Virus record (IMG/VR): IMGVR_UViG_3300036901_000031 | Coordinates: 1 to 56,536 of that record | Reading direction: 5' to 3' (one strand) | From: a virus | Length of the DNA stretch: 56,536 nt | Shown: positions 13,393 to 45,799 of the stretch, in pieces | How the letters are laid out: the number at the start of each line of letters is the position of its first letter | Numbering within the stretch: position 1 is the stretch's first letter | The notes under the pieces: generated by a model | Told to the model about the DNA's origin: nothing | Seen by the model: only the letters and a program-made list of their open reading frames with translations | Database searches by the model: none | Made by a program: the position numbers and the translations under genes

Positions 13393-13986
13393 TCACACAT
13401 GGATGCCGCATTCTGTTTTGTCTATTCCGGCCCATCTTCCCTCTCGACCCAAACCAGGGATAGTACATGGGACGCAACCAATTGAGTCATAGCCGCGATC
13501 ATGGAGAACGTTGTAAGGAAGATCGTGTTCATGGATGTAATCCCAAACATTTTGCTCCGTCCAATCAGCTAAGGGAGCCGCCTTCCAAATGCCCCGGCTA
13601 TCGACATCAAGGAGTTGGATATCTGATCGTGTTGGCCCCTGTTCTCTTCTCAACCCGGTAATCCAGCCGTCTACGTTTTCGAGAGCTAGATCCAATGCGG
13701 CAACCTTCCCTAGAGAGCAACAATGATCCTTGTCCCATTTGCCTGCGGCCATATAATCTTTAATCCTAATATCGTATCGGGCCTCAATTTCTGTCCAGAC
13801 TTGGTAAGTCTCGGGAAATAGCTTGCCCGTGTCAATAGTAAAAACGGAAATCTTTGGATCGATTGATAGAACCAAATCAATGAGAACAGAATCCTCTTTC
13901 TGAAACGAGCAGGCCAGCACAAGACGAGGGGCACAATACCTCGCCTCTTGAATAACCTCCTGTGCTGATTCAACCTTGTTCGTCAT
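13393..13986 (-). CDS. cysH: Adenylyl-sulfate (APS/PAPS) reductase
   Basis: 197 residues. CSFQKEDSVLIDL (26-38), FTIDTGKLFPETY (49-61), CCSLGK (C89, C90), WITGLRREQGPTRS, CVPC (C171, C174) and ECGIH (catalytic C193) are the hallmarks of the CysH family. The two Cys pairs indicate a [4Fe-4S] cluster, the APS-reductase type. It reduces activated sulfate to sulfite with thioredoxin, in sulfate assimilation. Phage cysH is a known auxiliary metabolic gene. The N-terminus is short for bacterial CysH, but all key residues are present. Confidence 0.88.
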   Translation of the reverse strand: MTNKVESAQEVIQEARYCAPRLVLACSFQKEDSVLIDLVLSIDPKISVFTIDTGKLFPETYQVWTEIEARYDIRIKDYMAAGKWDKDHCCSLGKVAALDLALENVDGWITGLRREQGPTRSDIQLLDVDSRGIWKAAPLADWTEQNVWDYIHEHDLPYNVLHDRGYDSIGCVPCTIPGLGREGRWAGIDKTECGIHV

Positions 13987-15178
13987 AATAAGTATGGAGA
14001 TCCTTTAATGGTCCTACATCAAATTGTAGACCAGGATGCTCCATTTGTACAGCCTCGGGTGAATGTGCCACAGTAATATGGGGTTTATACCCTCCTTCAA
14101 ATCTAGATACCGGAAGGCCACGAGCTTCAGCCTCATCCATTAGTGCCTCTGTATGCTTTATGAGATCGTCATTGTGAACTCGGAGCACTACAGGGTGGGG
14201 ACGCCCTTGTTCCATCGGGGTAAAGGCATCCACGCTTTGAGTAGCAACCGGATAGGTTAAGCCACTTCTTTGTTGAACCCATTGCTGATGCTCGGGATTA
14301 GAATATCCACTGGGACTATAGATGCCCGTTACATGATAACGGTCTGGTCGAGCAAATTGTGTTTGTTCTGGCCATTGTTGATTATGAGTCCACTCGTTGA
14401 TTTGTTGTTTAATATCGTCGGGTACCATGTAACTTGGGGCAAACCAATCTCCCTTTGATTGCTTAGCAGAAGCAATGTGAGTCCCTGTTAACTCGGCCAT
14501 CTTCTCTAGAAGTCCACGTTGGGCCAAGAACTTATAGAGCACATTAGATTCGGAAAAGTCCCCCTTACCAGCAGCTTGATCTCGTTGTCTCTTAGCATGA
14601 ATCTGATGGTAGAACTGGATTGCCTTATCCGGCTCATAACGAATCAATCGCTCAAGCTTATCAGCACTGAGGAGCGCCCAAGTATAGAATGCATTCTCTT
14701 CTTGCTCTACATTGTGGACTCGGGCGTGCTCAGGAGGCACAATCCACTTGTTAGCATCTAGATCGTAGCCCGATCTCAATCCCGGCTTGTACAAATCCTC
14801 AGGAGTAATCCCCTTGGGTACAACATAGTCCTGCATAGGAAATGGTGTACCGGGGAGTTTGGTGCCGTCTACCTTTCCCACCATTACCCCAATCATCTCA
14901 GCTCTAGACCATTCGGGAAGGACCTCATGATTGACGAATAACGAAACATCTACATCGGACTCATCCGAATACTGAAACGTAGTAAGTGAGCCTGTTAAAA
15001 CAAGGTGTAGCCATTTCTCAATGTCAGTGTAACCCGCATCTTTGAGAGCGGCGTAGATCGTTCTCTTGATCCAGTTCAGGTGTTGGGGCTTCAGCTTTGG
15101 CTCAGGGGACTCTGGATCATCGAAGACGCGAGGATCTAAACCAGCATGAGCCGGGTCGAGAATGTTAGCTATCTTCAT
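13970..15178 (-). CDS. Nucleotidyltransferase fused to 2H phosphoesterase
   Basis: 402 residues. N-terminal domain: LTGSLTTFQYSDESDVDVSL (61-80) has the GS...DxD motif (G63, S64, D75, D77) of the polymerase-beta-type nucleotidyltransferase fold. C-terminal domain: HVT (282-284) and HITVAH (367-372) are the two HxT/S motifs of 2H phosphoesterases, which open 2',3'-cyclic phosphates or act as RNA ligase-like enzymes. The linker contains a helical segment (about 160-240). It follows the CCA-enzyme operon and precedes cysH. A nucleotide-adding domain joined to a cyclic-phosphate-opening domain suggests RNA 3'-end healing, by inference. Confidence 0.7.
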   Translation of the reverse strand: MKIANILDPAHAGLDPRVFDDPESPEPKLKPQHLNWIKRTIYAALKDAGYTDIEKWLHLVLTGSLTTFQYSDESDVDVSLFVNHEVLPEWSRAEMIGVMVGKVDGTKLPGTPFPMQDYVVPKGITPEDLYKPGLRSGYDLDANKWIVPPEHARVHNVEQEENAFYTWALLSADKLERLIRYEPDKAIQFYHQIHAKRQRDQAAGKGDFSESNVLYKFLAQRGLLEKMAELTGTHIASAKQSKGDWFAPSYMVPDDIKQQINEWTHNQQWPEQTQFARPDRYHVTGIYSPSGYSNPEHQQWVQQRSGLTYPVATQSVDAFTPMEQGRPHPVVLRVHNDDLIKHTEALMDEAEARGLPVSRFEGGYKPHITVAHSPEAVQMEHPGLQFDVGPLKDLHTYYDEQG

Positions 15179-15311: not shown

Positions 15312-15585
15312 ATGAATGCTCTCCGCGACACGTAGTAATTTTCTCCCACACATATAGTTTATGTGATACGGCTCCTCGACCACGACATTGAATACCGGCC
15401 TCTTCTACAGCATCTCGCCACGAAGGAAAGTGTTGTCGAACAAGCCATACAGAAGGATGATCTCCTGTTATAACACTCCAGTCTTTAATGAACGGTCCCT
15501 CTCCATATAGTTTATTCCATCTGCGCATAGCATTTAGAATTCCCTCTTTAGACCACTCCTTGCTGTACTGGTTGTGCATTTGCAT
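15301..15585 (-). CDS. Protein with homing-endonuclease-associated repeat
   Basis: 94 residues. KEGILNAMRRWNKLYGEGP, then VRQHFPSWRDAVEEAGI, fits the short W...A..rw...yG.P...FpsW..A...AG repeat found beside HNH endonucleases and in phage DNA-binding proteins. It overlaps the end of the CCA-enzyme gene by about 35 nt; the start could be 15585 or 15579. Likely DNA-binding; no nuclease motif is present. Confidence 0.55.
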   Translation of the reverse strand: MQMHNQYSKEWSKEGILNAMRRWNKLYGEGPFIKDWSVITGDHPSVWLVRQHFPSWRDAVEEAGIQCRGRGAVSHKLYVWEKITTCRGEHSYVR

Positions 15586-18500
15586 ATTCCTTGGCTCGTT
15601 GGAGCAACGTATCTCGTTGATTTAAGGTGGGATCATCAATCACATCATTTGTTAAGTTTCTTAACACTTGACCCACCTGTGGTCCAGGTGGCACACCTAA
15701 TCCAAGTATATCATTTCCATTAATGGATAGGGCAGATTGTTGAGTTGGATCTTGAGCGGATCGAGACTGTTCTACCAATCCTCGCATCCTCTCCACATCC
15801 GTTATCCCGCCATCGGGAGCTATGACACCAATGTCATTTCCCTTGCCGTCAACGTCAGCATTACGAAGAGCGAGAAGATCGTCAGCGTTATCCCCTACTC
15901 GATTGAGAAACTTGCGTGCCCCCTTGGGTGTATTAAATGCTGGCCACATATGCTGCTCGACAAGCGATTGAATTCTGTGAATGCGAGAGTTAGGGTAACG
16001 AAGCTGTCGCAAACGATCCCCAACCATTTGGGCACCCAATGTTTCGTGATCGGCTCCCTGATGATTTGGTCCCTCATAGTAATGGTTGTATCCCGTAACC
16101 GGATCTACCCATGCACTATTGGGCTTACCCACATCATGAAGTAGGGCGGCCAATCTAAGATCGGGATCGGTTGAATTGCGGCTTATATGATCGAGCACAT
16201 TGAGTGAATGATCTCCAAGCGAGAAATTGTGATGAGGATTATTCTGATCAAAATCAAAGTTGTGTGCTAGCTCAGGAAGTAGCTGATGAAGCACTCCTGT
16301 CTCTTGGGCTAGACGAATGGCTCCAGCCGGATTAGGAGACTGAAAAAGCTTATCTAGCTCTCGCCCTGTGATGTCAGGAGACTCGCCACCAAGCTTAGAT
16401 GCGTTCTCTGTCATCTCTCGACGGGTACGCTCATCCGGAACAAGTCCGTGTCGAGAGGATGCTACCAAAGCACGCACTAAACGAGTAGGGTCCTCTTCAA
16501 ACGAAGAGGGATGGGTCGTTCGCAGAGTCTTACGCTCAATGTCCTTAGCTCCACCAAACGGATCAATTAACTGACCGTTATCTAGGTTAACGGCCATTGA
16601 ATTGACCGTGAAGTCTCGACGCTCAAGATCCTTCTTAATTGGCAGCGTATGATCGACTGTAATCTGTCCCTCTCCACGGCGACCACTCTCGTACTTGTCT
16701 TGTCGTGGCAGAGCGATCTCCACTTCCGATCCACCCGTGTTGTATCGGTAGACACCAAACTTCTTACCCGTGAGGTTAACAGAACCCTTGACCTTACTTA
16801 GAGCGTGTTCAACCTCTTCTGGAGGAAGTCCCGCAACCATAAGGTCGATATCCTTAGGCTCTCGCTGAAGTAGAGCATCTCGAACAGCCCCACCTACAAC
16901 ATAGACTTGACCACCGGCCTTCTTAAGGGTTTGGTAGGCACTCCAAGCAGCAGGATCGGTGGTTGCCAAAGTACGGATATATTGACCAACGCTCTGTGAA
17001 GCGGCAACCTTGGTTGTATTTCCTGCGGCATCTCTAAGTTCTACGCTTGTAACCTCCATTTGTGGATGTGAATGATACCATAGATCGAGCATGTGTCGCA
17101 CCGAGTAAGGTTGATCCGTCATATTCTGAATCGAAACCTTTCCTCCCGGAGCATAATATCCCTCTACGATTCCACCAGGAGTAAACCGGCCACTAATCGG
17201 ATGAGTAATATCTGATGTCTTTGTTCCGGGGTGGCCAATTGTGATGTGATCTTGTTGAACATCAAAGATGAAGGGAATCTCGGCCTCGATCATGTCCTTA
17301 GGATCTGAGCCAGCCGAGTAAACCCACTTCTGGCCTTTGACATTAACAAAGCCCAATCGCCGCATCACTCGTTCCCCTCCTTCCGAACCAGCATGAGAGT
17401 AGACGTTTGGGTGATACTCGATTACCTTCTGGGTCATCGTCAATCCAAGTCCTCGTCCAGGGACGGCATGGATCATGATGATCTCGGTCTTGTCACCATC
17501 TGGTCGGACACAAGTGTAGCCTAATAGCTCACCATTATCATAGCCTCCGTAAAAGATTAGGCCGTCATCTCTATCGTATCCCCATAGTTTTGCGTACAAT
17601 TCAAATCCAGGGACGACAGAAGCCTCACGGAAGCTAGCAAGCGGAATTGCTACAGGCTCGGAATTGTGTCGATGTGCTGGAAGCGGATCATCTATTTCTC
17701 CCGGTCGAGGGAAGTGTCCATCCTCGATTGGATCAACATCAGGATGATGGTTCTGAACGTGCAACATATACTCGCCAAACGAGTCTAGAGGAATGTTGCA
17801 AGCGGGACAGCTAAAGTTTGTATCAGGAGGAAGATCTGTTTTCTTCTCGGGTTCCCAATTAGGATCAATACGATTGAAAGTCTCAAGACCCTCTTCGTTC
17901 TTGATCTTATCGTTAAAGTCTGTCTCCGTTCCAGGATACTCGGCTAATTTGTATCCAAAGTCCTTGGCCCAATCCCTAAGTCCCTCGGAGTAATTATCGT
18001 CGGCCAATGATCCCGAGCGTATTTTTGCCACTCCTCCTGCCACGTCAATAATTCCTGCAAACCTCTGTAGGGGTCTTTCGGAAAGAACCAAACCCTTGTT
18101 CCACGAGTAATACATTCGCCGCTTAGGGCCGAAAAGATCTTGTCCTTCGATTCCATCAAATTGCCAGCCGACTTTTTCTCCGTAGTCTGTGAAGATACTT
18201 GCGAGTCCTCTAAGCCCCGTATTAGTTGCAACGGTCCATCTGGCTCGTCCTCCTCGTACAACAAGTAATCCCGTGGCAAGCGGCCCATTATAATCGGCCG
18301 AAACTCGCGCCAAGTTGTGTAACTCCTCGATTGAGTGGATAGGGGAGACGTGTAGTTTACCGTTTGCCCAGAAGTATTTGTACTGTTTGATTTCGTCGTC
18401 ATTTTCAGGTACCCATGGTTCATCGTGAAAGAATTTTTGATTCATGTCCTCTACCGATTGAGGGGTCGAACCAGGATACGGATCGGCTCCCATCAGATCG

Positions 18501-18904
18501 GCAGTCTTATGACCGGCAAGAATATTGTCTGCTCGCTTTGAAAACAGTTTAGCACGCGGAGTCTCCGGTGTGTCGGTTTTCACTCGCAGATCTTTGAAGA
18601 GACTATGAGAGGTTCGCTTATAGAGAACTGGCCCCGGCTCAGATCCATGCGGATGGGCATCGCCAGTAAGATCTACGGCGTATGTCTTGTCAGGAGACAC
18701 CCAGAAATAGTGACCGTTCTTCACGCCAACATAGCCACCCCAATGCTTTGTCAACCACTTGCTCGTGACAAAGCATTGGCCATGAGCCAGATTAGGATGA
18801 CCGGCAAACTTCTCGTGCCTAGTATCATCGCCCCAGGCAGCCTCAGCAGCCTTACGAAAGGTTGTTAGTTTATCTTGGCTGAGAGAGGTTGGATCAAAAG
18901 ACAT
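15548..18904 (-). CDS. 1118-residue multidomain CCA-adding enzyme (YunG-like, zinc finger, GNAT, CCA/PAP, HD)
   Basis: Domains in order: about 10-80 YunG-like (HGQCFVTSKWL with C44, NGHYFWVSPDK, AVDLT); about 366-387 C2H2 finger (CPAC ... HVQNHH); about 430-530 GNAT acetyltransferase-like (LLGYTCVRPDG, HAVPGRGLGLTMTQ, RRLGFV); about 660-860 class II tRNA nucleotidyltransferase/poly(A) polymerase (VVGGAVRD 669-676, D685xD687, RRDFTVNSMA 762-771, IDPFGG); about 890-1000 HD phosphohydrolase (DHSLNVLDH, LLHDVGKP with H923-D924). A bacterial CCA enzyme is usually about 400 residues. The encoded tRNAs lack CCA, so CCA addition is the likely role. Start at ATG 18902-18904: TATAAT ends 7 nt upstream, no Shine-Dalgarno. 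Confidence 0.8.
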   Translation of the reverse strand: MSFDPTSLSQDKLTTFRKAAEAAWGDDTRHEKFAGHPNLAHGQCFVTSKWLTKHWGGYVGVKNGHYFWVSPDKTYAVDLTGDAHPHGSEPGPVLYKRTSHSLFKDLRVKTDTPETPRAKLFSKRADNILAGHKTADLMGADPYPGSTPQSVEDMNQKFFHDEPWVPENDDEIKQYKYFWANGKLHVSPIHSIEELHNLARVSADYNGPLATGLLVVRGGRARWTVATNTGLRGLASIFTDYGEKVGWQFDGIEGQDLFGPKRRMYYSWNKGLVLSERPLQRFAGIIDVAGGVAKIRSGSLADDNYSEGLRDWAKDFGYKLAEYPGTETDFNDKIKNEEGLETFNRIDPNWEPEKKTDLPPDTNFSCPACNIPLDSFGEYMLHVQNHHPDVDPIEDGHFPRPGEIDDPLPAHRHNSEPVAIPLASFREASVVPGFELYAKLWGYDRDDGLIFYGGYDNGELLGYTCVRPDGDKTEIIMIHAVPGRGLGLTMTQKVIEYHPNVYSHAGSEGGERVMRRLGFVNVKGQKWVYSAGSDPKDMIEAEIPFIFDVQQDHITIGHPGTKTSDITHPISGRFTPGGIVEGYYAPGGKVSIQNMTDQPYSVRHMLDLWYHSHPQMEVTSVELRDAAGNTTKVAASQSVGQYIRTLATTDPAAWSAYQTLKKAGGQVYVVGGAVRDALLQREPKDIDLMVAGLPPEEVEHALSKVKGSVNLTGKKFGVYRYNTGGSEVEIALPRQDKYESGRRGEGQITVDHTLPIKKDLERRDFTVNSMAVNLDNGQLIDPFGGAKDIERKTLRTTHPSSFEEDPTRLVRALVASSRHGLVPDERTRREMTENASKLGGESPDITGRELDKLFQSPNPAGAIRLAQETGVLHQLLPELAHNFDFDQNNPHHNFSLGDHSLNVLDHISRNSTDPDLRLAALLHDVGKPNSAWVDPVTGYNHYYEGPNHQGADHETLGAQMVGDRLRQLRYPNSRIHRIQSLVEQHMWPAFNTPKGARKFLNRVGDNADDLLALRNADVDGKGNDIGVIAPDGGITDVERMRGLVEQSRSAQDPTQQSALSINGNDILGLGVPPGPQVGQVLRNLTNDVIDDPTLNQRDTLLQRAKEYANAQPVQQGVV

Positions 18905-28826: not shown

Positions 28827-30353
28827 CTATTCTGATGCTTTTGTTACTGGATCCGTCTGATCACCCTTAGGAAACGTTTTTGTGTGCGGTCCCTTGGATT
28901 CCCCGCCATCAGCAAAACCAGAATCATCTAGTCCTTTAGCTGTCGGCAATGTTTCGTGCTTGATGTCCCCAATTTCCTCTAGAGCGTCTTCATTTTGAGG
29001 GATAATCGGCTCAAGAATATCCTTTTCTTTTGTGTCATCAAACTTAATTTTCTCTAGATTCTTTGGCGTCCATAGGCGCTTATCAATCTTTGGCTCAGGT
29101 CCGCCTAGACCAGTATTATTCTGGCTATCGGCTACCTTGTCGAGAGTAGATTCTCCCCAATCAGCAACCTTTCCTTTACCGTGACAACGAGAGCACTTTG
29201 AATTCTTGCCTCCACAAAGAGGACAACTTACTTCCTTCCCCTCATCGGGGTCTTTATCTTCCGCTGGATTAAACTCTTTTGGGGCTGCCGTTCGGCTATC
29301 CGGGGTATTATCCCCTGACTCCAAGATCGGTCGAATATCTCGTGGAGTCCAACTAGCGGTAAGACCACCGGCCATTAGTCCTTGAATCTGTCCCAATAGT
29401 CCTTGAAGCTGCTGTGTTCGCTGATGATTCGTTCCTCCACTAGCCTGTCCAGCTTGCTGAAGAGTCATAATGGCATTCTGAATAGCCTCTGGATTAGCCT
29501 GAGGAGTAGGCGGCGCATCAGTAGGAACGCCACCCTGAGAATTAGGGTCCATGGGAGCTTGAGAATTTGGATCTAGAGAAGCCGGATCGGTAGGACCGGC
29601 TACGAATTGCACGCCATTTGACACATCGGCTGTTCGTGTGCTAGCAGCAACAGCCAAAGGAGCCTCTGTGAGGCCCGCAGAATCACCAGAAAGGTCATCC
29701 GATCCGGAATCAGGGGATTCTGCCGCTGGTGATGGGAAATCAATTACGTTGTCTGGGAGAGCGTCAGTTGTTTCGTTAACTTGCTCGACATTTTGATCTG
29801 GCACATCAAGGACCAAAGGAGCTTCCTGAGTCGGCTGCTGCTCCTTCTTCTCTTCTCGTGCTTTAGCACGATCATCCCAATAGGACTGAGTTACCATTTC
29901 CTTCTTGAAGTTACACTTGCCTTCCCAAGCACCCTGACAATGATTGTCCGACCAAGCGTGCTGAGACATTGCGTTAAATCCTGCTTCTGGATTTCCAGAA
30001 GCTAGAGAAATATCTGTAACCTCAGAATGATATGGGCACATCTTCACTCGTGACTCACGTACAAATTCTGGCTGAGATCGTGCGACGGGTCGATAATGAT
30101 CTCGAAGGGTCTGAGCAATATTAGCCGGGGACTTATGACCAACCTCATCACAAGCGACTAGAACAACTCCGTTGAAATCGTCCTCAACATACGAAAATCG
30201 AGCATCGTATTCCTCTGGTGTTGCGGCCTGCTTGAGAAAGCTTCCGAACATAGCGTCTGTACGAGCTTCAGCAACCAATAGAGCTTGGCGTGCTGCCAAG
30301 CGTGGATTTTCATCTTCTGCTGCTATGACTTCAAATAAACCTGTTTCAGTCAT
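28827..30353 (-). CDS. Virion-associated protein with DnaJ-like zinc-finger repeat
   Basis: 508 residues between the 335-residue protein and the portal. The N-terminal 170 residues form a domain with several Cys/His (VKMCPYHSEVTD, QHAWSDNHC). The middle is a long Gln/Pro/Asp-rich linker, and CPLCGGKNSKCSRCHGKGK near 380 is a DnaJ-type CxxCxGxGx(n) motif. The gene position suggests a head or scaffold-associated role; no family recognised. Confidence 0.5.
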   Translation of the reverse strand: MTETGLFEVIAAEDENPRLAARQALLVAEARTDAMFGSFLKQAATPEEYDARFSYVEDDFNGVVLVACDEVGHKSPANIAQTLRDHYRPVARSQPEFVRESRVKMCPYHSEVTDISLASGNPEAGFNAMSQHAWSDNHCQGAWEGKCNFKKEMVTQSYWDDRAKAREEKKEQQPTQEAPLVLDVPDQNVEQVNETTDALPDNVIDFPSPAAESPDSGSDDLSGDSAGLTEAPLAVAASTRTADVSNGVQFVAGPTDPASLDPNSQAPMDPNSQGGVPTDAPPTPQANPEAIQNAIMTLQQAGQASGGTNHQRTQQLQGLLGQIQGLMAGGLTASWTPRDIRPILESGDNTPDSRTAAPKEFNPAEDKDPDEGKEVSCPLCGGKNSKCSRCHGKGKVADWGESTLDKVADSQNNTGLGGPEPKIDKRLWTPKNLEKIKFDDTKEKDILEPIIPQNEDALEEIGDIKHETLPTAKGLDDSGFADGGESKGPHTKTFPKGDQTDPVTKASE

Positions 30354-37802: not shown

Positions 37803-37871
37803 TTGCGATAGGCAGAATCGAACTGCCTCCTACACCGTATGAAAGTGTATGTCAGCCATAGACTTACCGCA
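37803..37871 (-). tRNA. tRNA-Met(CAT)
   Basis: Acceptor TGCGGTA/TATCGCA, T-arm GGCAG-TTCGATT-CTGCC and loop TTCATAC. The D-arm is short (3 bp). No CCA is encoded. Could serve Met or lysidine-modified Ile. Confidence 0.7.
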
Positions 37872-37979
37872 TTGGATTTCCCCCTACCGCCTATCCTCGG
37901 TCATTGGGGTACTCAAATGTCGTGAAGTTCACTCTCCCTAATCCGGGGTGCGGAGTGTACGATAGGTGTCACGCTCGGT

Positions 37980-38141
37980 TTAGTGGCGTCGGTTACCTTC
38001 CATCCCTGGTCCGCGAGGCTTTCCCACGCGGAGACGATAGCGAGCGCACTTAATTTTGTTGCGTCCGTACTTTCGGTTCTTGCGTCCCTCCTTCTTCTTT
38101 TTCTTTGGAGGGGTGACAAGACGAACTACTGGTACAGCCAT
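37980..38141 (-). CDS. 53-residue basic protein
   Basis: MAVPVVRLVTPPKKKKKEGR, then KNRKYGRNKIKCARYRLRVG, ending in basic residues. The AAGGAGAAATCC before ATG 38139-38141 is a strong ribosome site. This fits a family of small, very basic phage proteins (GRNKxKCxxYRxxG) found beside tRNA and structural genes. It probably binds nucleic acid or ribosomes. Confidence 0.65.
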   Translation of the reverse strand: MAVPVVRLVTPPKKKKKEGRKNRKYGRNKIKCARYRLRVGKPRGPGMEGNRRH

Positions 38142-38209
38142 GGATTTCTCCTTCGTTTAGGGGTCATATCCTAAACATGGCAATACCTCCTTAGTTTGTT
38201 GTTGATAAA

Positions 38210-38281
38210 AGCGGATGGAGGGAATCGAACCCTCATCTCAGGTGTGGAAGACCGGCATAATAACCATTATACTACACCCGC
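38210..38281 (-). tRNA. tRNA-Gly(TCC)
   Basis: T-arm GAGGG-TTCGATT-CCCTC, loop CTTCCAC (anticodon TCC, codon GGA); acceptor nearly perfect with one wobble. No CCA. Confidence 0.8.
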
Positions 38282-38339
38282 GTAAGACCTTTTAGAACCC
38301 ATGTCCAGGGGCTTGCTAGCAATAGGGAATGACCCTACA

Positions 38340-38413
38340 AGCTCATTTAGGGAATCGAACCCTATCTATTCCGCTTTACAAGAGCGACGCAGCACCATTT
38401 CTGCATAATGAGC
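38340..38413 (-). tRNA. tRNA-Thr(TGT)
   Basis: Loop CTTGTAA; acceptor arms GCTCATT/AATGAGC are perfect complements. Lies 8 nt downstream of the RNase P RNA 3' end. Confidence 0.85.
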
Positions 38414-38420
38414 GATATTA

Positions 38421-38891
38421 CAGTTTGTAGCCGGGGTTCTGTTTATCCAGGTCAGGAAGCTTATCCTCCCTAAATTAACGATCATCTGTCTCAGGAGATA
38501 GTTAGTCTCCTGGCGGATTCTTGACGAGTTGCCCGCTGCCCTCTACCTGCTATGTCCATAGGTTTCCCCTTAGGATTCGCGTCTTGAGGTTGCATCCTCA
38601 ACGTTCGTATGTGGTCCAAACGCAGCAACAAGAACCGGATCGGTTTTCCATAATGATGAATCCTTTTCCGCTTGCTTTACGAGATACAAAAGAACAAATG
38701 GAAACATTGCTTCCCGTTGTTCTTTTGTCGTGATAGATTTAGCTATCGCTTCAGCCGTTTTATACGACATTGCTGCTCCCACTACTACGTCGCTTATTTA
38801 CTGGGTTGATTAAGCCCATAACCGGATTTCCCCGGCCAGGATGCCCCGAACTTCCTCTACGCATACCTTCTGCGCAGCAATCGTCTAACTG
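38421..38891 (-). ncRNA. rnpB: RNase P RNA (rnpB-like), with inserted ORF
   Basis: Reading on the minus strand: 5' end CAGTTAGACG (P1, pairing with AACTG at the 3' end), hairpin CTGCGCA/TGCGTAG (P3), GAGGAAGTTCGGGGC and the 3' strand ACAGAACCCCGGCTAC. The last two correspond to the universal P4 strands (consensus GAGGAAAGTCCGGGC and ACAGAACCCGGCTTA). They pair as AG(U)UCGGGG/CCCCGGCU, keeping the single bulged U that is universal in P4. Length is 471 nt against about 350-400. The specificity-domain position holds a 66-codon ORF. RNase P matures tRNA 5' ends, and this gene sits among tRNA genes. A protein subunit was not identified. Confidence 0.75.
38570..38770 (-). CDS. 66-residue protein encoded inside the RNase P RNA gene
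   Basis: MSYKTAEAIAKSITTKEQRE and on; helical, Lys/Glu/Ala-rich, ending in TSRRES. GGGAG lies 8 nt upstream of ATG 38768-38770. The codon pattern looks like real coding sequence. Its position inside rnpB, in the place of the specificity domain, is unexpected. Function unknown. Confidence 0.55.
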   Translation of the reverse strand: MSYKTAEAIAKSITTKEQREAMFPFVLLYLVKQAEKDSSLWKTDPVLVAAFGPHTNVEDATSRRES

Positions 38892-38906
38892 TAAATTTTA
38901 AGAATA

Positions 38907-38977
38907 CCCTCCTGCCCGGAGTCGAACCGGGGACGCCACCCCTGGGGGATGCGCTCTGTCCTCTGAGCTACAGGACG
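38907..38977 (-). tRNA. tRNA-like, anticodon unclear (possibly Trp CCA)
   Basis: T-arm CCCGG-TTCGACT-CCGGG is sound and flanking GAATACC/GGTATTC arms extend the acceptor stem. Anticodon loop reads CCCCAGG, with C instead of U at position 33, and the anticodon stem is imperfect. Confidence 0.5.
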
Positions 38978-38987
38978 GTATTCTAAA

Positions 38988-39058
38988 AGCGGATAGAGGA
39001 AATCGAATCCTCACATCTTCCATGGCAAGGAAGTAGGCTGCCACTACATCATATCCGC
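38988..39058 (-). tRNA. tRNA-Gly(GCC)
   Basis: Stem CTTCC/GGAAG, loop TTGCCAT; acceptor GCGGATA/TATCCGC; T-loop TTCGATT. No CCA. Confidence 0.9.
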
Positions 39059-39066
39059 AAGCTTGA

Positions 39067-39114
39067 GTGCCCCTGGACGGATTTGAACCGCCGACACCCG
39101 GTTTCGAAACTTTA
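39067..39114 (-). other. Orphan tRNA 3' half
   Basis: A T-arm (GGCGG-TTCAAAT-CCGTC) and an acceptor 3' strand AGGGGCA follow tRNA-Arg(TCG) directly, without a 5' half. The acceptor strand closely matches that of tRNA-Arg(TCG), so it looks like a recombination remnant. Confidence 0.5.
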
Positions 39115-39189
39115 GTGCCCCCGCAGGGAATCGAACCCCGTATCTCTTGTTTCGAAGACAAGCGTATTTTCCGTCTTACTCCGAGGGCA
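39115..39189 (-). tRNA. tRNA-Arg(TCG)
   Basis: Stem CTTGT/ACAAG, loop CTTCGAA; T-arm around TTCGATT; acceptor pairs TGCCCTC with GGGGGCA. Short D-arm. Confidence 0.75.
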
Positions 39190-39248
39190 TAATTGAGCCG
39201 TTTCATTCCTCGTTACTCAGGAGTTAGGCAATTAGGTTGCCATCCAAG

Positions 39249-39322
39249 TGCCCCCTCTGGGATTCGAACCCAGGATTTTCGGATTAAGAGTCCGCTGCCT
39301 TAGGCCGCTTAGCTAAGGAGGC
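39249..39322 (-). tRNA. tRNA-Lys(CTT)
   Basis: Loop CTCTTAA, T-arm CTGGG-TTCGAAT-CCCAG, acceptor GCCTCCT/AGGGGGC with one wobble. No CCA. Confidence 0.85.
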
Positions 39323-39380
39323 AAGTTAGCTAGTTTGCCCTTAGTAATCCCTTCGCAGGGTCATAGCGGGCGCTCGCTAG

Positions 39381-39449
39381 TCCCCGTAGTCGGAGTTGAA
39401 CCGACCATCCAGCCTTCGCAGGGCCAGCACTAGATCCGCTAGTACGGAG
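39381..39449 (-). tRNA. tRNA-Arg(GCG)
   Basis: Loop CTGCGAA with a wobble-rich anticodon stem; T-arm GTCGG-TTCAACT-CCGAC; acceptor CTCCGTA/TACGGGG. Confidence 0.75.
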
Positions 39450-39464
39450 TTATTGAGTGAGAAT

Positions 39465-40136
39465 TTAGCCCTCACTCACGGCTCTGAACATCTGGCTGCT
39501 AACGTCTTCAAAGACAAACGAGTTTTTGTCTCTTGCAAACTCTCCCAAAGTATAGTCCCTAAGGAGGGTGTACTCGTAGGAGTGCTCATCCCCGCCGAGG
39601 ATCAGTTCCCAAATTGCAGGACGCTGTTCCTTAAACTCGGTGAGCATCTTCTGCGCAAACTTTCGTTCGTCCGTGGTCATCGAAGGACCAATGCTTTTTG
39701 ATTCAAGTTCCCCAATCCTTAGGTGAAGGTCCCGATGGGAACCAACACAAATTGGGATCGTACACTTGGACCGAGAAGCATATGCCTGATAGTTCTCAAG
39801 CAGGAGCATCATCCATCGCGGAACGTAATGGTGCCGAGTGATTCTTCCCTCGCACTCAAGTCCATGGATGGAGCAGATTCGACAGACCGGCTCAATTCCA
39901 GCTAGACGGATTCGCTCTTGACGACGAGCCAAAACATGGGCCGGAACTATGCTGCCATCGGATGCTACTCGACAACGATAGAGAACCTGACGCTGGGAGA
40001 GATCTTCGTCAAGAAGATCGTCCAAATCCACGTCTTCAAGGTCTGCAAGAAGCTCAAGTTGAGCCGCAGTAGCCTTGGATCTCTGGTCGAACCAAAGAGT
40101 CTGATCGTTGATATGAAAGGGTCTAGCTCTAGACAT
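39465..40136 (-). CDS. HNH-type endonuclease
   Basis: 223 residues. CRICSIHGLECEGRITRHHYVPRW is followed by CVGSHRDLHLR: a Cys-Cys pair, HH and a later HxxLH-type site as in HNH nucleases. TATAAT (40152-40157) and GGAGAAG precede the ATG, a normal leadered start. It is a likely homing or free-standing nuclease between tRNA genes. Confidence 0.65.
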   Translation of the reverse strand: MSRARPFHINDQTLWFDQRSKATAAQLELLADLEDVDLDDLLDEDLSQRQVLYRCRVASDGSIVPAHVLARRQERIRLAGIEPVCRICSIHGLECEGRITRHHYVPRWMMLLLENYQAYASRSKCTIPICVGSHRDLHLRIGELESKSIGPSMTTDERKFAQKMLTEFKEQRPAIWELILGGDEHSYEYTLLRDYTLGEFARDKNSFVFEDVSSQMFRAVSEG

Positions 40137-40227
40137 AATTCTTCTCCTCTCATTATATCATGGATATAAGCCGCGAATATTTTGCCCGTTAAACTATTGA
40201 TCTCTTATGGCTACAAGCTGTCTTGCA

Positions 40228-40270
40228 ATCCGGGACCAAGCAGGACTCGAACCTGCAACTTTTGCGAAGT
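40228..40270 (-). other. Orphan T-arm/acceptor fragment
   Basis: GCAGG-TTCGAGT-CCTGC plus TTGGTCC follow tRNA-Glu(CTC) with a 12-nt ACTT/AAGT mini-hairpin before. No matching 5' half nearby. The same arrangement as at 39067-39114. Confidence 0.45.
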
Positions 40271-40340
40271 AGCGATACGGGGAATCGAACCCCGATTTTT
40301 ACCGTGAGAGGGTAACGTCCTAACCGTTAGACGATATCGC
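40271..40340 (-). tRNA. tRNA-Glu(CTC)
   Basis: Stem TTACC/GGTAA, loop CTCTCAC; T-arm CGGGG-TTCGATT-CCCCG; acceptor GCGATAT/GTATCGC. Confidence 0.85.
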
Positions 40341-40404
40341 CTTGGTGCGGGCCGGAAACCTCCGTAGGTGGAGGACCGTACCCGCATGTACTGCTGCCCG
40401 CAAG
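40341..40404 (-). other. Nested hairpin before tRNA-Glu
   Basis: Downstream of the NAMPT stop the minus strand reads TGCGGG..CCCGCA around CCTCC/GGAGG. It has no U-tract, so it may be an RNA element or processing structure rather than a terminator. No tRNA or protein seen. Confidence 0.35.
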
Positions 40405-41853
40405 CTACAATGCCGCCCTCTCACGAATGTCGGCAAACGTTTGATGCCTTGTAATCTTCCCATTCTCAAATACCGTTTCGAGGATATCCTGCTTCACATC
40501 ACGTTGATCATGGGGGCCTCGATAATCGGCAGTAATACCAACTTTCAAACCCTCTTCTAGGGTCCTATACGAAACCTCGCCGTGCTCACCAACGAAACGA
40601 CTAAGCTGAAGACGACCCGCCTTGCTCTTCTTTGAAGAGTCGAGAGGATTCTTCGAGACATCATGCCAAATTCCATCGCGCTCTTGAGCCGAGCACTTGA
40701 AGGCAAATCTCTGGGTGTCGCGGTTGACCTTCTGGAGAAGACCACCGCCCATTCCAAAGACCATATTCTCTGCCGAGTATCCAGCAAGCTGAAGACGACC
40801 GAGAATGTTTGCAATGCCGTGAGGATCGATCCCATCGCCCCAGAGGACCCTTACATGGGGGTCTAGGACCTTGAAACCCTTAGAGTTAGTGGTTGTCCCA
40901 AACGCCTCCCCAAGACTCGTTACAATCCACTCCGTAAGAGTCTCAGGAGTAGGATGCTGAGGGGTTGTCGAATCGGGACGGACCACAAAGACCCCATCTC
41001 GCTCTAGGATCTCGGTTCTCAACCATGTGTCGTTTGAGATTTCCTCTACGAATCGATAGATGTTGTAAGAATCAGCAACCACCGAAAGGATTCCCGTAGG
41101 ATGATCTTGGAGTAGCTGATGCACAATTGAGTATTCTCCCTCGCTACCGAGAGCCGTCATTACTGAGTGCTCTGTAGCAGGAACCGAGAATGCAAGACTC
41201 TCATAGTCCGCATCGTAGGTTTCGTGTGCCAGCAACATAGCCGGAAGTGTATCCGTCCCCATGAAGTTGACTAGATGGGCTGCTCCACCGATAGCTGCTG
41301 TCTCGTCACTTGAAGCTCCGCGATAACCAAAGTCGTGAAGCATGAACGGAAGAGAGTCCTGCGAATCTGCTGTATTCGTCAAGAACTGGGCGATTGTCTC
41401 TTTGACCGCTCGACTGACGGTAGCAACCGTTGACGGGTACCAAACGTGAGTCAACAGGGACTCAACGAAGTTGGTCAACCAGTAACACTTAGGATCGGTG
41501 TTCTCGACCGTCATTAGGGCATTCCCCGTAGGAATGACAGAACCCTCAGGAACAGCCTTAATACGGAGTGGAAGCATTCCGACGTGCGCTTGATAGATGT
41601 ACTCCCAACCCTTCCGGTTGAAAAGTTCATCGTTACCGAAGTGAATCGCAGCAAGTTCGCTGGCCTCTTCGATATCGGCGTATCTTATCGGCGTTGCTAG
41701 CTTCTCCAGGATCTTCTGCAATCCGAAAAACACCGTGTAGGGATATGTTGCCCCCTCTCGGCTTTCAAAATATGAGTAAACTCCTGTCGTCCCTTTCGGG
41801 TACTGGTTCCAGTGAGTTAGCTTGTATGAGTCTGTACTGAGAATTGTATTCAT
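40405..41853 (-). CDS. nadV: Nicotinamide phosphoribosyltransferase
   Basis: 482 residues, full length for NAMPT. TDSYKLTHWNQYPKGTTGVY (N-terminus), DFGYRGASSDETAAIGGAAH, SVPATEHSVMTALG, VVADSYNIYRF, RPDSTTPQHP and VFGMGGGLLQKVNRDTQRF match the family core that binds nicotinamide and PRPP and makes NMN. TATAAT at 41891-41896 gives a 38-nt leader with AAGGA. Directly upstream in transcription is the NMN adenylyltransferase gene, making the NARP2 pair that restores NAD+ after NAD-depleting defences act. Confidence 0.9.
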   Translation of the reverse strand: MNTILSTDSYKLTHWNQYPKGTTGVYSYFESREGATYPYTVFFGLQKILEKLATPIRYADIEEASELAAIHFGNDELFNRKGWEYIYQAHVGMLPLRIKAVPEGSVIPTGNALMTVENTDPKCYWLTNFVESLLTHVWYPSTVATVSRAVKETIAQFLTNTADSQDSLPFMLHDFGYRGASSDETAAIGGAAHLVNFMGTDTLPAMLLAHETYDADYESLAFSVPATEHSVMTALGSEGEYSIVHQLLQDHPTGILSVVADSYNIYRFVEEISNDTWLRTEILERDGVFVVRPDSTTPQHPTPETLTEWIVTSLGEAFGTTTNSKGFKVLDPHVRVLWGDGIDPHGIANILGRLQLAGYSAENMVFGMGGGLLQKVNRDTQRFAFKCSAQERDGIWHDVSKNPLDSSKKSKAGRLQLSRFVGEHGEVSYRTLEEGLKVGITADYRGPHDQRDVKQDILETVFENGKITRHQTFADIRERAAL

Positions 41854-41898
41854 GACCTTATCCTTGTATAGGCGTTGAATGTTTCTTTGTATTATACG

Positions 41899-42804
41899 CT
41901 ACTTGGTCCACCAACGTCGTTCCAGAACTTGTTCGAGGAGAATCTTGTGATTCTCCACGACCTGATCCTTTAGACGCGGCTCTAGTTCGAACCACCTGAC
42001 CTCAGCAATATCGTCCGCCGCCTTGGGGTGACCATACATATGGAACGCCTCAAAGAGGAGTGTCTTGATTGCCCGATCTGGCTCATTTCGATAGCGCCAA
42101 TCATCGATCAGAAAGCTGCCGATGTAGACCGGATCAGTGACTTCGATATTGGCCTCTTCCATTACCTCTCTACGAGCATCTGCCTCGTAGCTAGGAGAAC
42201 CAGGATCAGCGAATCCCCCGATCAAGCGGAACTTCTTCTCATTCGGCTTGCGCCCAAGAAGAATCTTTGTCTTCCCGCCATTGAGAATTGCAACGTCAAC
42301 TGTTGGGAAACACTGAGGAAATTGGCTAAATGCCGACCACACTACCCCGGCTCGGAAATCCGGGGTTCCCCGAACGCTTGTACGAGAAACCTCTTTGCGG
42401 ATTTCGCTCCCCGAGACATAAACCGATGACTCAAGTTCTTCTGTCGGATGCCTGCCGCTGTAATGCGAGATGAATGAGTCCCGTCCTCCATATAGGCGGA
42501 CCGACTGAGAGGGAGTAATGACATCCTCGATTTGCTTATCGAGATTCAAACTCCACCCCTCATCATCCGGCTGATCCTTGATGTAGAGCACGTTCACATT
42601 TGGAAACCGGGCTAGAATCATCTGCTTGCGGGCTTCGAAGTCCAGAGGATTCTCCCGCGTCACCATCAACGGCGACAAGCCAAGGAAGATGATTACCTTC
42701 CCGTGGCGATCACAAACAGTCTGAATAAGCTCTAGATGAGCATCGTGCAACTCTGGGACTTGAAAGCGCCCTACAATGACGCCAACATCTTCATTGATTT
42801 TCAT
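41899..42804 (-). CDS. nadM: Bifunctional NMN adenylyltransferase / Nudix hydrolase
   Basis: 301 residues. GVIVGRFQVPELHDAH (7-22) has the nucleotidylyltransferase HxxH-type signature, followed by VYVSGSEIRKEV. The second half has a Nudix box GGFADPGSPSYEADARREVMEEANI-type (Gx5Ex7REUxEExGU). The first domain joins ATP to NMN to make NAD+; the Nudix domain likely cleaves ADP-ribose-type compounds. AAAGGAAC precedes ATG 42802-42804. With NAMPT it forms NARP2. Confidence 0.9.
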   Translation of the reverse strand: MKINEDVGVIVGRFQVPELHDAHLELIQTVCDRHGKVIIFLGLSPLMVTRENPLDFEARKQMILARFPNVNVLYIKDQPDDEGWSLNLDKQIEDVITPSQSVRLYGGRDSFISHYSGRHPTEELESSVYVSGSEIRKEVSRTSVRGTPDFRAGVVWSAFSQFPQCFPTVDVAILNGGKTKILLGRKPNEKKFRLIGGFADPGSPSYEADARREVMEEANIEVTDPVYIGSFLIDDWRYRNEPDRAIKTLLFEAFHMYGHPKAADDIAEVRWFELEPRLKDQVVENHKILLEQVLERRWWTK

Positions 42805-42849
42805 TTTGTTCCTTTCAATTCCATCGATAACGAATTGTATGAACTACAG

Positions 42850-42921
42850 TACCCCCGGTGGGAGTCGAACCCACAACATTCGCCTTAAAAGGGCGCTACT
42901 TTGCCTTTCAGTTTCGGAGGC
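42850..42921 (-). tRNA. tRNA-Lys(TTT)
   Basis: Loop CTTTTAA, T-arm GTGGG-TTCGACT-CCCAC; acceptor GCCTCCG/CGGGGGT. The anticodon stem has a terminal mismatch. No CCA. Confidence 0.8.
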
Positions 42922-42992
42922 AGGTACTAATAGCTTCTATGATCTCACCTGGACACGCAGGGTGTGTCGATCTTCAATAACCTTCCCGCAAG

Positions 42993-43066
42993 TACTCCAT
43001 CTTGGACTCGAACCAAGGACACGCAGCGTATAAGACTGCTGCTCTTACCGACTGAGCTAATGGAGC
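42993..43066 (-). tRNA. tRNA-Ile(TAT)
   Basis: Stem GCAGT/GCTGC, loop CTTATAC (reads ATA); T-arm CTTGG-TTCGAGT-CCAAG; acceptor GCTCCAT/ATGGAGT. Confidence 0.8.
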
Positions 43067-43069
43067 AAG

Positions 43070-43230
43070 ACAAATAATCGGCTGTCAATAGCCACGAGTG
43101 GCGAACCTCGCGTTTGGGCCTGACATTTTGGCCTGGGCCGACCGTGCCACAGTCTAGATCCAGTTTGCCCGGTGCGTACAACCAATGCCGCTAAGCAGGT
43201 TGAAGTGGTCCGGTTACCGACTATAAGATT
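43070..43230 (-). other. Unassigned stretch between tRNA-Ile and tRNA-His
   Basis: Contains a GGCCC...GGGCC-rich segment and a T-loop-like GAGGTTCGCCACTC, but I could not fold a complete tRNA or find a plausible ORF. Confidence 0.3.
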
Positions 43231-43236
43231 TTCAAG

Positions 43237-43311
43237 GGTGTATGACCGGATTCGAACCGGCATTGACTACCTTCACAGGGTAGGGCATTGACCAATTATG
43301 CTACACACACC
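43237..43311 (-). tRNA. tRNA-His(GTG)
   Basis: Stem CTACC/GGTAG, loop CTGTGAA; acceptor GTGTGTG/CATACAC plus the extra G-1 paired with C73, the tRNA-His identity feature. Confidence 0.9.
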
Positions 43312-43600
43312 ATGATGTGCTCGCGTATATACCAAAACGCGCGTGGGCGATATCGCATATACACTAGAGCACGGATACTATACCAGAGGACGCTTGTTAT
43401 CGTACAATCGTCAAACGCTCGACCACCAAGCTGCCAGGTGGTACCTACCGAGTCAACCGCTACCGAGTCGCCACTGGATACGCTCAACCCCTGCTCTCGG
43501 CCAATATCGCGTTCATCCCGACATTCTCATCCACAGCCACTTGCTAGGCGACTGCCTCTACCGTAAAACAACCTCTACCGTTATGTAAATTAGTAGAAAG

Positions 43601-43684
43601 TAGCGGTGGAGGGACTCGAACCCTCAATCTCTCACGAGCGGAGGTTTTTAAGACCGCCGTGTATACCAATTCCACCACACCGCC
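43601..43684 (-). tRNA. tRNA-Leu(TAA)
   Basis: Class II with a long variable arm; loop CTTAAAA; T-arm GAGGG-TTCGAGT-CCCTC; acceptor GGCGGTG/CACCGCT. Confidence 0.85.
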
Positions 43685-43689
43685 AGATA

Positions 43690-44187
43690 ATGACCAAATC
43701 AAGAAAATATAAAGATTCTGATCTAATCGGTGCTGTTGAAACTTCAGTTTCAATCCGACAAGTCCTAAATCAATTAGGTCTAAAACCCGCTGGAGGCAAC
43801 TATACCACAATCAAAAATCGTGTACGGGAGCTAAGTCTAAATACCTCACACTGGAAGGGCCAAGCTTGGAATAAGGGTCTGAGCGTTTCGTCCTACACTA
43901 AACGTGATCTCAAGGATATTTTAGTTGAAAACAGTCCTCATAAGCAAAGTCATAGCCTAAAAATTCGCCTTCTTAAGGAGGGCATATTACAAGCCATATG
44001 CGACGAGTGTACCATCATCAATTGGCAAGACAAGCCCCTATCATTTCACCTTGAACATATTAACGGAATTCATGATGATAATCGTCTTGATAACCTACGA
44101 CTTTTGTGCCCTAATTGTCACTCCCAAACCCCAACCTATTGCGGAAAGAACATCGGCAAAAGCCGAATCCCTCTGCCATTGGGGTAG
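43690..44187 (+). CDS. HNH homing endonuclease
   Basis: 165 residues from ATG 43690. Sequence pattern of phage homing enzymes: SIRQVLNQLGLKPAGGNYTT, then LEHINGIHDDNRLDNLRLLC and PNCHSQTPTYCGKN, including the H...N/H...H active site and Cys pairs. It is on the plus strand, opposite to its neighbours, between tRNA-Leu and a small gene. The last ~45 codons lie opposite a minus-strand ORF (44095-44226), as if the element invaded that gene. Confidence 0.8.
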   Translation: MTKSRKYKDSDLIGAVETSVSIRQVLNQLGLKPAGGNYTTIKNRVRELSLNTSHWKGQAWNKGLSVSSYTKRDLKDILVENSPHKQSHSLKIRLLKEGILQAICDECTIINWQDKPLSFHLEHINGIHDDNRLDNLRLLCPNCHSQTPTYCGKNIGKSRIPLPLG

Positions 44188-44226
44188 TCCTACAAACTCG
44201 TTCTTCTTGACTGTTTCAAATTCCAT
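44095..44226 (-). CDS. 43-residue leaderless ORF antisense to HNH end
   Basis: MEFETVKKNEFVGLPQWQRD then SAFADVLSAIGWGLG and a short tail. TATACT at 44233-44238 ends 6 nt before the ATG, the leaderless layout. The final third runs antisense to the HNH gene, so I infer a small host-phage gene whose 3' end was replaced by the HNH insertion. Confidence 0.45.
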   Translation of the reverse strand: MEFETVKKNEFVGLPQWQRDSAFADVLSAIGWGLGVTIRAQKS

Positions 44227-44232
44227 AACTAC

Positions 44233-44238
44233 AGTATA
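44233..44238 (-). promoter_or_regulatory. Leaderless-type promoter -10
   Basis: TGATATACT, extended -10, 6 nt before the 43-residue ORF. Confidence 0.5.
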
Positions 44239-44268
44239 TCATACCCGTCCGATTGTTGGCGGTTGTCG

Positions 44269-44616
44269 TCAATACCCCAAAGCTTCTTCAATGAATTTCC
44301 AATCATCCTCAGTTCCATATGCTATGGGATCTTCTTCGCCAGAGGCATCACGAGCCATCACAATGATGAAATCGTGGGGGTAATCAAGACTGTAATCCGC
44401 CATCTCTTGAGTAATATTTCCTCGTTCTACATGCTTTTTTAGGGCATGACGTGCCCCACGCTCTGTCGTCGGGATAATCACAACTGGACCAGTTTGATAA
44501 ACCATCGCTACTCGTTCGTGACGAAAATCCTCGCCGGTAATTCCAGCATTTTTCATGAGAGTAATAAGATCTTCTCTTTCCTTATCGGATAACGCATATT
44601 GCTTTACTATACCCAT
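44269..44616 (-). CDS. Hypothetical protein
   Basis: 115 residues. Charged helices at the ends with a beta strand region (FRHERVAMVYQTGPVVIIPT). A TATAAA box and an 11-nt gap precede the ATG. Lies between the HNH gene and tRNA-Gln. No family recognised. Confidence 0.55.
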   Translation of the reverse strand: MGIVKQYALSDKEREDLITLMKNAGITGEDFRHERVAMVYQTGPVVIIPTTERGARHALKKHVERGNITQEMADYSLDYPHDFIIVMARDASGEEDPIAYGTEDDWKFIEEALGY

Positions 44617-44737
44617 TTTTAACTCACTTTATAGAAATTTTGAGCGATCTAGGCTTCCAGTTATTCATTGGCTTGGGAAGCTCCACGAAATGCCAATCAA
44701 GATGTTCCCGCGTCAATCGCTCTGGGGAACCCACGAG

Positions 44738-44812
44738 TTGCAGAGGTAGGAATCGAACCCACGGCTTCCTGGTTCAAAGCCAGGCGAACATGCCAGCATA
44801 TTCTACTCTGCA
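44738..44812 (-). tRNA. tRNA-Gln(TTG)
   Basis: Stem CCTGG/CCAGG, loop CTTTGAA; acceptor TGCAGAG/CTCTGCA; T-loop TTCGATT. No CCA. Confidence 0.85.
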
Positions 44813-44910
44813 ATAGCCCCGACTCACACGGGAAATCGAATGCATAGTTGAATCCACATTCCATACACGGCTCATCCGTGCTTGGTCATCCTCGATGACG
44901 ATGTATTAAG

Positions 44911-44982
44911 CTGCGGAAGTAGGATTCGAACCTACATCAGACGGCTTCAGAGGCCGCTATCTTGCCATTAGACCACTCCGCA
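44911..44982 (-). tRNA. tRNA-Gln(CTG)
   Basis: Loop CTCTGAA, stem GCGGC/GCCGT; T-arm GTAGG-TTCGAAT-CCTAC; acceptor TGCGGAG/TTCCGCA. Confidence 0.85.
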
Positions 44983-45044
44983 TTGTTTACCTCAAAATCC
45001 AAATGTCGGAGTTTGACTATAACAATTGGGACACAAAAACCGCA

Positions 45045-45116
45045 AATCGGGACTGAGAATCGAACTCAGGAGACAGACCTTATGAAAGTCTGCGGGATAC
45101 CAACATCCTTCCCGAA
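45045..45116 (-). tRNA. tRNA-Met(CAT)
   Basis: Loop TTCATAA, stem AGACT/GGTCT; acceptor TTCGGGA/TCCCGAT with a 1:72 mismatch. The anticodon stem lacks the three G-C pairs of initiator tRNA. May be elongator Met or Ile2. Confidence 0.75.
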
Positions 45117-45119
45117 CAA

Positions 45120-45191
45120 GGAGCGGACCCGGACTCGAACCGGAACGGGAGGTTATGAGTCTCCAATGATACCAATTTCACTAATCCGCAC
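45120..45191 (-). tRNA. tRNA-Met(CAT)
   Basis: Loop CTCATAA; T-arm TCCGG-TTCGAGT-CCGGG; a U-U at 2:71 and an A-C in the anticodon stem. Third CAT tRNA. Confidence 0.7.
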
Positions 45192-45212
45192 ATACACTTA
45201 CAATAATTTTGA

Positions 45213-45296
45213 TACCCCTCACCAGATTCGAACTGGTACGCTCTTCCAAGCAACGGGACTTGAATCCGTCGAGTCTGCCTATTTCTCCAGAGGGGC
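45213..45296 (-). tRNA. tRNA-Leu(CAA)
   Basis: Class II long variable arm; loop TTCAAGT; acceptor GCCCCTC/GAGGGGT; T-arm ACCAG-TTCGAAT-CTGGT. Confidence 0.85.
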
Positions 45297-45410
45297 GAAT
45301 ATTTTTACCACAATAGGTATCTGTTTGGGAATGACAATTTGGGGCAAAGGCAAGTAACACCTTTGTTTATATGGTCTAAAACCATCCTAGCAGAGTGACA
45401 ACTGCTTAGT

Positions 45411-45480
45411 AGCTCGACGGGGAATCGAACCCCGCCTACAAGGGTGAAAACCTTGCGTTCTAGCCGCTAAACTATCGAGC
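45411..45480 (-). tRNA. tRNA-Glu(TTC)
   Basis: Stem CAAGG/CCTTG, loop TTTTCAC; T-arm CGGGG-TTCGATT-CCCCG; acceptor GCTCGAT/GTCGAGC. Confidence 0.85.
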
Positions 45481-45577
45481 CAGATATACTTCGGAACTTC
45501 AAATTTCGTGCAACACCCTAACCACCTGAACGTGGCCCGCCTTTCAAGGTCGAGCCGTAGTCTCAGATGTTACACAA

Positions 45578-45649
45578 TCGGAATACTGGGAATCGAACCC
45601 AGACGACCACCGTATCAGAGTGGCAGGCTAACCATTACATCATACTCCA
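45578..45649 (-). tRNA. tRNA-Ile(GAT)
   Basis: Stem CCACT/GGTGG, loop CTGATAC; T-arm CTGGG-TTCGATT-CCCAG; acceptor TGGAGTA/TATTCCG. Confidence 0.8.
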
Positions 45650-45653
45650 GTGG

Positions 45654-45723
45654 AGCCGTTAGAAGGATTCGGACCTTCAACTCCCCGCTCATTGGCCGGG
45701 CGTTTTACTTAAACTATATCGGC
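45654..45723 (-). tRNA. tRNA-like, degenerate (AAT anticodon?)
   Basis: T-loop is TCCGAAT instead of TTCGAAT, and the anticodon loop CCAATGA has C at position 33. Acceptor GCCGATA/TAACGGC has one mismatch. Probable decayed or special tRNA. Confidence 0.45.
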
Positions 45724-45798: not shown

Positions 45799-45799
45799 G

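Follow-up and report, generated by a model that had tools for sequence, protein, structure and literature searches.

Why should a bacterial virus build a CCA-adding enzyme, which completes the 3' ends of tRNAs, into the same polypeptide as an acetyltransferase? The question is raised by the window, the whole 56.5-kb IMG/VR record IMGVR_UViG_3300036901_000031, which comes from a soil-type bacterial virus. On its minus strand, 1118 codons run uninterrupted from an ATG at 18904 to a stop at 15548 (15548..18904; the domain coordinates below are on the same strand). The encoded protein consists of a YunG-like domain, an uncharacterised middle domain, a C2H2 zinc finger, a GNAT acetyltransferase fold, a further conserved domain and a class II CCA-adding enzyme with an HD domain. 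The first-pass annotation had read five domains in this chain (YunG-like, C2H2, GNAT, class II nucleotidyltransferase and HD) and had proposed that GNAT and CCA enzyme act together on tRNA ends, by acetylation or protection. The domains have held up; the joint action has not. The reading favoured here, held with somewhat better than even confidence, is that of a modular, polyvalent-type protein, in which a CCA-adding module would serve the phage tRNAs and the GNAT domain would be independent of it. Enzymes and binding domains that are otherwise independent would be joined in a single chain, the gene for which lies near those for portal and terminase.

Is the fusion genuine? A full-length orthologue, 77% identical, lies on a 160-kb IMG/VR contig (L001/L012). 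When the family was traced with the neighbouring gene and then with alignments of relatives as probes, it turned up in further contigs, to a total of ten; one of these (L002) is a fragment with the same sequence as the window. An assembly artefact or chance fusion is ruled out by the orthologue, the further contigs and a GNAT fold match at Z 12.8. All five domains appear to be real, as judged by the orthologue, by matches above cut-off in relatives, by the fold match and by residue invariance. The GNAT and CCA domains, whose presence had been set beforehand as the test of the annotation, were both found (Z 12.8 for the former and PF01743 at E 9.5e-30 for the latter).

Residues 655-1105 form a class II CCA-adding enzyme composed of a PolyA_pol head, an RNA-binding neck, an HD domain and a tail, for which catalytic activity is predicted. 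The head (16520..16906; PF01743 at residues 667-795, 104 bits against a cut-off of 23) contains GG..RD at 671-676, DxD at 685/687, RRD at 762-764 and EDxxR at 804-808. It is followed by the tRNA-binding neck identified by Pfam (PF12627, residues 824-880, 16265..16435) and by the HD domain (residues 898-986, 15947..16213), where PF01966 scores over its cut-off and the metal ligands H...HD...H...H are all in place (H899, H923-D924, H953 and H985). The C-terminal tail (residues 1055-1102, 15599..15742) resembles tRNA_NucTran2_2, at 24.5 bits against a cut-off of 27. The enzyme motifs and HD ligands are all invariant in the eight aligned sequences.

The best named models for this part are TIGR02692 (E 9.6e-59) and the tRNA nucleotidyltransferase family phrog_2244 (E 8e-60), and its solved relatives include 3h37 and 6ibp. 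The actinobacterial CCA tRNA nucleotidyltransferase described by TIGR02692 has the same order of head, neck, HD domain and tail, and positions 21-456 of the 466 in that profile are matched. Free-standing CCA enzymes are found in many large phages. The solo enzymes of PHROG 2244, such as those of Mycobacterium phage ScoobyDoobyDoo and Salmonella phage PVPSE1, are homologous, about 30-32% identical and likewise from large phages. However, ScoobyDoobyDoo gp27 is a stand-alone protein of 397 amino acids, encoded among small genes at the left genome end, whereas the enzyme of the window forms the C-terminal module of a chain of 1118 residues. The sources searched contain no description of a CCA-adding enzyme that is part of a multi-domain phage protein.

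Which tRNAs would such an enzyme act upon? The window encodes about 40 tRNAs and a tmRNA (37803..51507, minus strand). Among the 40 tRNA genes with a scorable acceptor stem, only one has CCA after the discriminator; by raw ends, this is an odd tRNA-Ile AAT. In three relatives none does (0 of 34, 0 of 45 and 0 of 32). Each searched phage of the clade has exactly one PolyA_pol match, always in the multi-domain gene; a search of Rhodococcus phage E3 found none. It is plausible that the CCA module matures the phage-encoded tRNAs, and completing and repairing tRNA 3' ends is most likely its most economical function. As the constant module of the protein, the enzyme with its HD phosphohydrolase would add 3' CCA to the phage's own set of tRNAs and to damaged tRNAs, and could repair it. 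Since the host, too, probably has a CCA enzyme (10 of 14 control genomes have a PolyA_pol match), the benefit of the phage copy presumably lies in capacity, timing or independence from host damage. Separately, the phage tmRNA (window 48100-48502) has an ARAGORN tag prediction of unusual length, and the related phages G001 and G002 also carry a tmRNA within the tRNA cluster.

Is the GNAT domain tied to this enzyme? The domain (residues 414-533, 17306..17665) was identified by profile, AlphaFold model and fold search. In the window protein the Pfam GNAT match is below threshold (E 0.06); in the same segment of relative L017, PF00583 reaches E 9e-8 (32.8 bits against a cut-off of 20.7). VIA-align of the AlphaFold domain (residues 413-532) gave Z 12.8 to 1y9k over 117 aligned residues at a root-mean-square deviation of 2.6, Z 12.4 to RimI and Z 12.0 to Naa50, and Foldseek gave E 5e-5. 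The acetyl-CoA P-loop, (R/Q)xxGx(G/A), reads PGRGLG, with P in the first position. The fold is shared with RimI/Naa50-like acetyltransferases over the whole domain (Z of about 12), but identity is only 9-18% and the domain is swapped out in relatives. It is no closer to another GNAT group than to protein acetyltransferases of the RimI/Naa50 type.

The swapping takes place in a slot bounded by the C2H2 region before it and a segment starting KD[ML][IL].A..PF after it. GNAT fills this slot in the window, L012, L013 and L017/L018. In L014 it is replaced by a zinc-ribbon-like segment, in L016/L011 by a domain without an assigned fold (HCGTYA...HHYFAHDDEHAYD, papain-like by eye only) and in L019 by a segment with a weak PcfJ-like match (E 0.018), while L015 has a GNAT with a degenerate P-loop and L078 a shortened one. 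Whatever fills the slot, all contigs of sufficient length have an intact CCA part. Retention of the CCA enzyme alongside unrelated domains or a degenerate GNAT means that GNAT has no functional tie to it, and the main ground for tRNA acetylation is gone. As the occupant of a swappable effector slot, the GNAT domain probably has a protein as its substrate and works independently of the CCA module.

What kind of protein combines constant and exchangeable parts in this way? Polyvalent proteins are multi-domain proteins of phages and conjugative elements, with mosaic domains that include GNAT, Pol-beta nucleotidyltransferase and 2H (PMC5512222, Iyer et al. 2017). Their genes typically lie near virion genes, and the proteins have been proposed to be injected; an MPTase is present in about 36% of them, and neither MPTase nor LPD is obligatory (PMC5512222). 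The protein described here is likewise a large phage protein with disparate activities and mosaic domain swapping, and it is encoded about 7 kb downstream of portal and terminase, on the same strand. It differs in having constant modules in a fixed order, and in a CCA enzyme and a YunG-like domain; the terms "CCA" and "YunG" do not occur in the main text of PMC5512222.

Could the modules be separated after synthesis? The module junctions carry [KR]-x-A-[D/E/A/S], which is conserved in relatives. K133-T-A-D136 (18497..18508) is [KR]-[TQ]-A-D and K319-L-A-E322 (17939..17950) is [KR]-x-A-E in all eight aligned sequences, both in linkers with a low predicted local distance difference test (pLDDT) score. 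In K632-V-A-A635 (17000..17011), directly ahead of the CCA enzyme, K and A are invariant; a cut after A634 would free a CCA enzyme of 484 residues, near the 466 of the free-standing model. A further candidate junction, R426EAS, was dropped after the fold search placed it within the GNAT domain. In L017, the neighbouring gene shows the motif as well, in the arrangement Fic -[RTA]- nucleotidyltransferase -[KTAA]- 2H.

The motif [KR].A[DEAGS] was counted over all open reading frames (ORFs) of two relatives of near-complete size, G001 and G002, with G003 and G004 held out; the homologues compared are not independent. In G002, the most enriched were the multi-domain protein (13 against 3.4 expected) and a head-maturation-protease/scaffold protein (14 against 3.1), the N-terminus of which is a head maturation protease (phrog_18299). 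The protease/scaffold protein ranked first and the multi-domain family fourth in G001, and in the window the multi-domain protein was first (13 against 2.9 expected). Among about 180 ORFs of the held-out G003 and G004, the family ranked first and second and the protease/scaffold protein fourth and third, respectively. In phage E3, for which a literature search for a virion study gave nothing useful, the protease gp77 ranked third and an ORF over gp70, annotated as a structural protein, ranked second. When all 400 x.y residue pairs were ranked without regard to the motif, K.A came 2nd in five protease/scaffold proteins and 8th in the N-terminal part of the family; R.A came 6th and 1st, respectively.

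These patterns permit a tentative reading, which we consider somewhat doubtful: the head protease might cut at [KR]-x-A|x in the multi-domain protein, the nucleotidyltransferase-2H protein of the adjacent gene and further internal proteins, and the resulting enzymes, among them a working CCA-adding enzyme and the swappable effectors, might be packaged into the capsid and injected. Proteins rich in [KR]TA or [KR]xA also lie between terminase and portal (window 28827-30353 and 30362-31369; G002 96894-98933). One of them, of 508 amino acids with six [KR]xA motifs (28827..30353, minus strand), is a possible internal head protein, and all of them may be processed proteins of that kind.

Several observations weigh against the polyvalent-type reading and its extension to the virion. 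Pfam found no MPTase, LPD, ArdC-N or other domain typical of polyvalent proteins, and the relatives have the gene at a great distance from the one for the major capsid protein. TIGR02692, the best CCA equivalog model, scores 199.2 bits, well under its cut-off of 438.8, and the phage protein differs from that enzyme also in its 640-residue N-terminal half. The [KR]xA motif was first spotted in the linkers of the multi-domain protein itself, some copies sit within folded domains, and the N-terminal part of L017 taken alone is only weakly enriched (P 0.10). Cutting at the junctions, packaging and injection form the weakest step, and association with the virion was not observed.

How do other explanations fare? 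A poly(A) polymerase, or some nucleotidyltransferase other than a CCA-adding one, might be argued for from PF01743, a family common to both activities, and from a match to TIGR01942 (pcnB), but the best models are CCA and tRNA nucleotidyltransferases and the phage has a large tRNA set lacking CCA; this is most improbable. Very unlikely, too, is a single integrated tRNA-end enzyme whose GNAT domain acetylates tRNA ends or aminoacyl groups once CCA has been built. GNATs that act on aminoacyl-tRNA do exist, and both domains share one chain in the window and in the relatives in which GNAT fills the slot. Against this stand the unrelated or degenerate occupants of the slot elsewhere, and a conserved domain of about 95 residues between GNAT and CCA enzyme.

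More serious, and with a real if minority chance of being correct, is the possibility that the protein works uncut as a single tRNA maturation or repair enzyme, made in the infected cell only; its N-terminal half would then bind RNA or have a regulatory role, and the [KR]xA motifs would be incidental. This would suit the CCA-less phage tRNAs, the intact HD domain, the 2H phosphoesterase encoded next door and the conserved N-terminal region with its zinc finger. By contrast, free swapping in the slot and the occurrence of the two halves as separate genes in L078 speak against tight integration, as do, against incidental motifs, the junction sequences shared with the scaffold. The modular polyvalent-type protein with an independent GNAT domain therefore remains the preferred explanation.

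What do the remaining N-terminal domains contribute? Residues 1-108 (18581..18904) match PF24585, YunG, below its cut-off of 27 bits in the window protein (E 0.03, 15 bits) and above it in L019 (28.2 bits). Invariant C44, H65 and D78 possibly form a triad of the thiol-hydrolase type. A PDB profile search with this domain gave only spurious matches to designed proteins, and a literature search on YunG gave nothing useful. The zinc finger (residues 364-387, 17744..17815) has the pattern C-x2-C-x12-H-x3-H, with all four ligands (C366, C369, H382 and H386) invariant in eight sequences, and scores 12.2 bits against the zf-C2H2_4 cut-off of 27. Two further conserved segments were absent from the first-pass domain list: the middle domain (about 170-300, 18005..18397), recognised by conservation and by an AlphaFold pLDDT of 72-83 over 170-250, and the post-slot domain (about 536-630, 17015..17299), with GGIVEGYY and LWYxSHP. 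The AlphaFold model was made from an 11-row alignment (pLDDT 59.8), replacing a discarded 3-row model (pLDDT 37.6), and is good only for the GNAT and middle domains. The N-terminal half had no match at E<1 among annotated phages, region scans of the protein at E<10 gave insignificant matches only, and a pattern scan of bacterial genomes found no relatives of the protein.

Gene structure varies within the family. In L078, two adjacent genes encode the front and the back half, and ahead of the CCA enzyme the latter contains two additional segments, ART-like and ParB-like by eye only, to which Pfam assigned no family. L014 carries about 95 extra residues at its N-terminus, which match no Pfam family. 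HNH-endonuclease ORFs break up the gene in L011/L016 (L011:5122-5592) and L015 (L015:7079-7624); the sequence flanking the gap in L015 suggests an intron, and an Rfam search at the interruptions in L011 and L015 found no group I intron. In the window, an HNH-endonuclease or HNH-repeat ORF at 15301-15585 abuts the gene. The first-pass annotation had also described the protein as starting leaderless. A TATAAT lies 7 nucleotides ahead of the window ATG; as a family-wide trait, a leaderless start is not supported, since most relatives have nothing like a -10 hexamer at this distance from the start, and G-rich, Shine-Dalgarno-like stretches occur in several of them.

The adjacent gene (13970..15178, minus strand) is, by its profile matches, a second modular protein, with a nucleotidyltransferase and a 2H phosphoesterase; relatives also have Fic, GNAT-like and other modules. 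In L017 (10351-13653), a Fic/Doc domain (PF02661, E 1e-7) precedes the nucleotidyltransferase, and in L015 (9676-11802) there is a weak GNAT match further down. The 2H domain of L017 has a weak match to the anti-CBASS enzyme Acb1 (E 9e-4), no more than a hint of counter-defence. An intein-like insert with a LAGLIDADG domain (CLAPDTLVL...GLYSHN|S) lies inside the nucleotidyltransferase of this gene in L014 (10666-13749), and a similar insert is found in a SWIM-finger gene of L078 (13726-16065). A PAPS-reductase-family gene (window 13393-13986) lies directly downstream of the nucleotidyltransferase gene. Elsewhere, the window encodes a portal protein, rIIA/rIIB, a carbamoyltransferase-like protein (9515-10396) and, within the tRNA cluster, a nicotinamide phosphoribosyltransferase-like protein of NAD metabolism (40405-41853); its terminase is nearest to those of Rhodococcus phage E3 and the Bxz1-like mycobacteriophages.

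On the best reading, the novelty is that a CCA enzyme forms the constant part of a polyvalent-type protein which also has a swap slot, in a new clade. It would link large phage tRNA sets, nearly all without CCA, to a phage enzyme able to complete them. With its changing occupants between flanks that stay the same, the slot would be a route to new phage effectors, as illustrated by GNAT, the PcfJ-like segment, the zinc ribbon and, next door, Fic. If the [KR]-x-A junctions are sites of the head protease, the virion cargo of these phages would be predictable from sequence, and the phage would deliver tRNA-maturation and counter-defence enzymes with its DNA, exchanging effector modules between cleavage sites.

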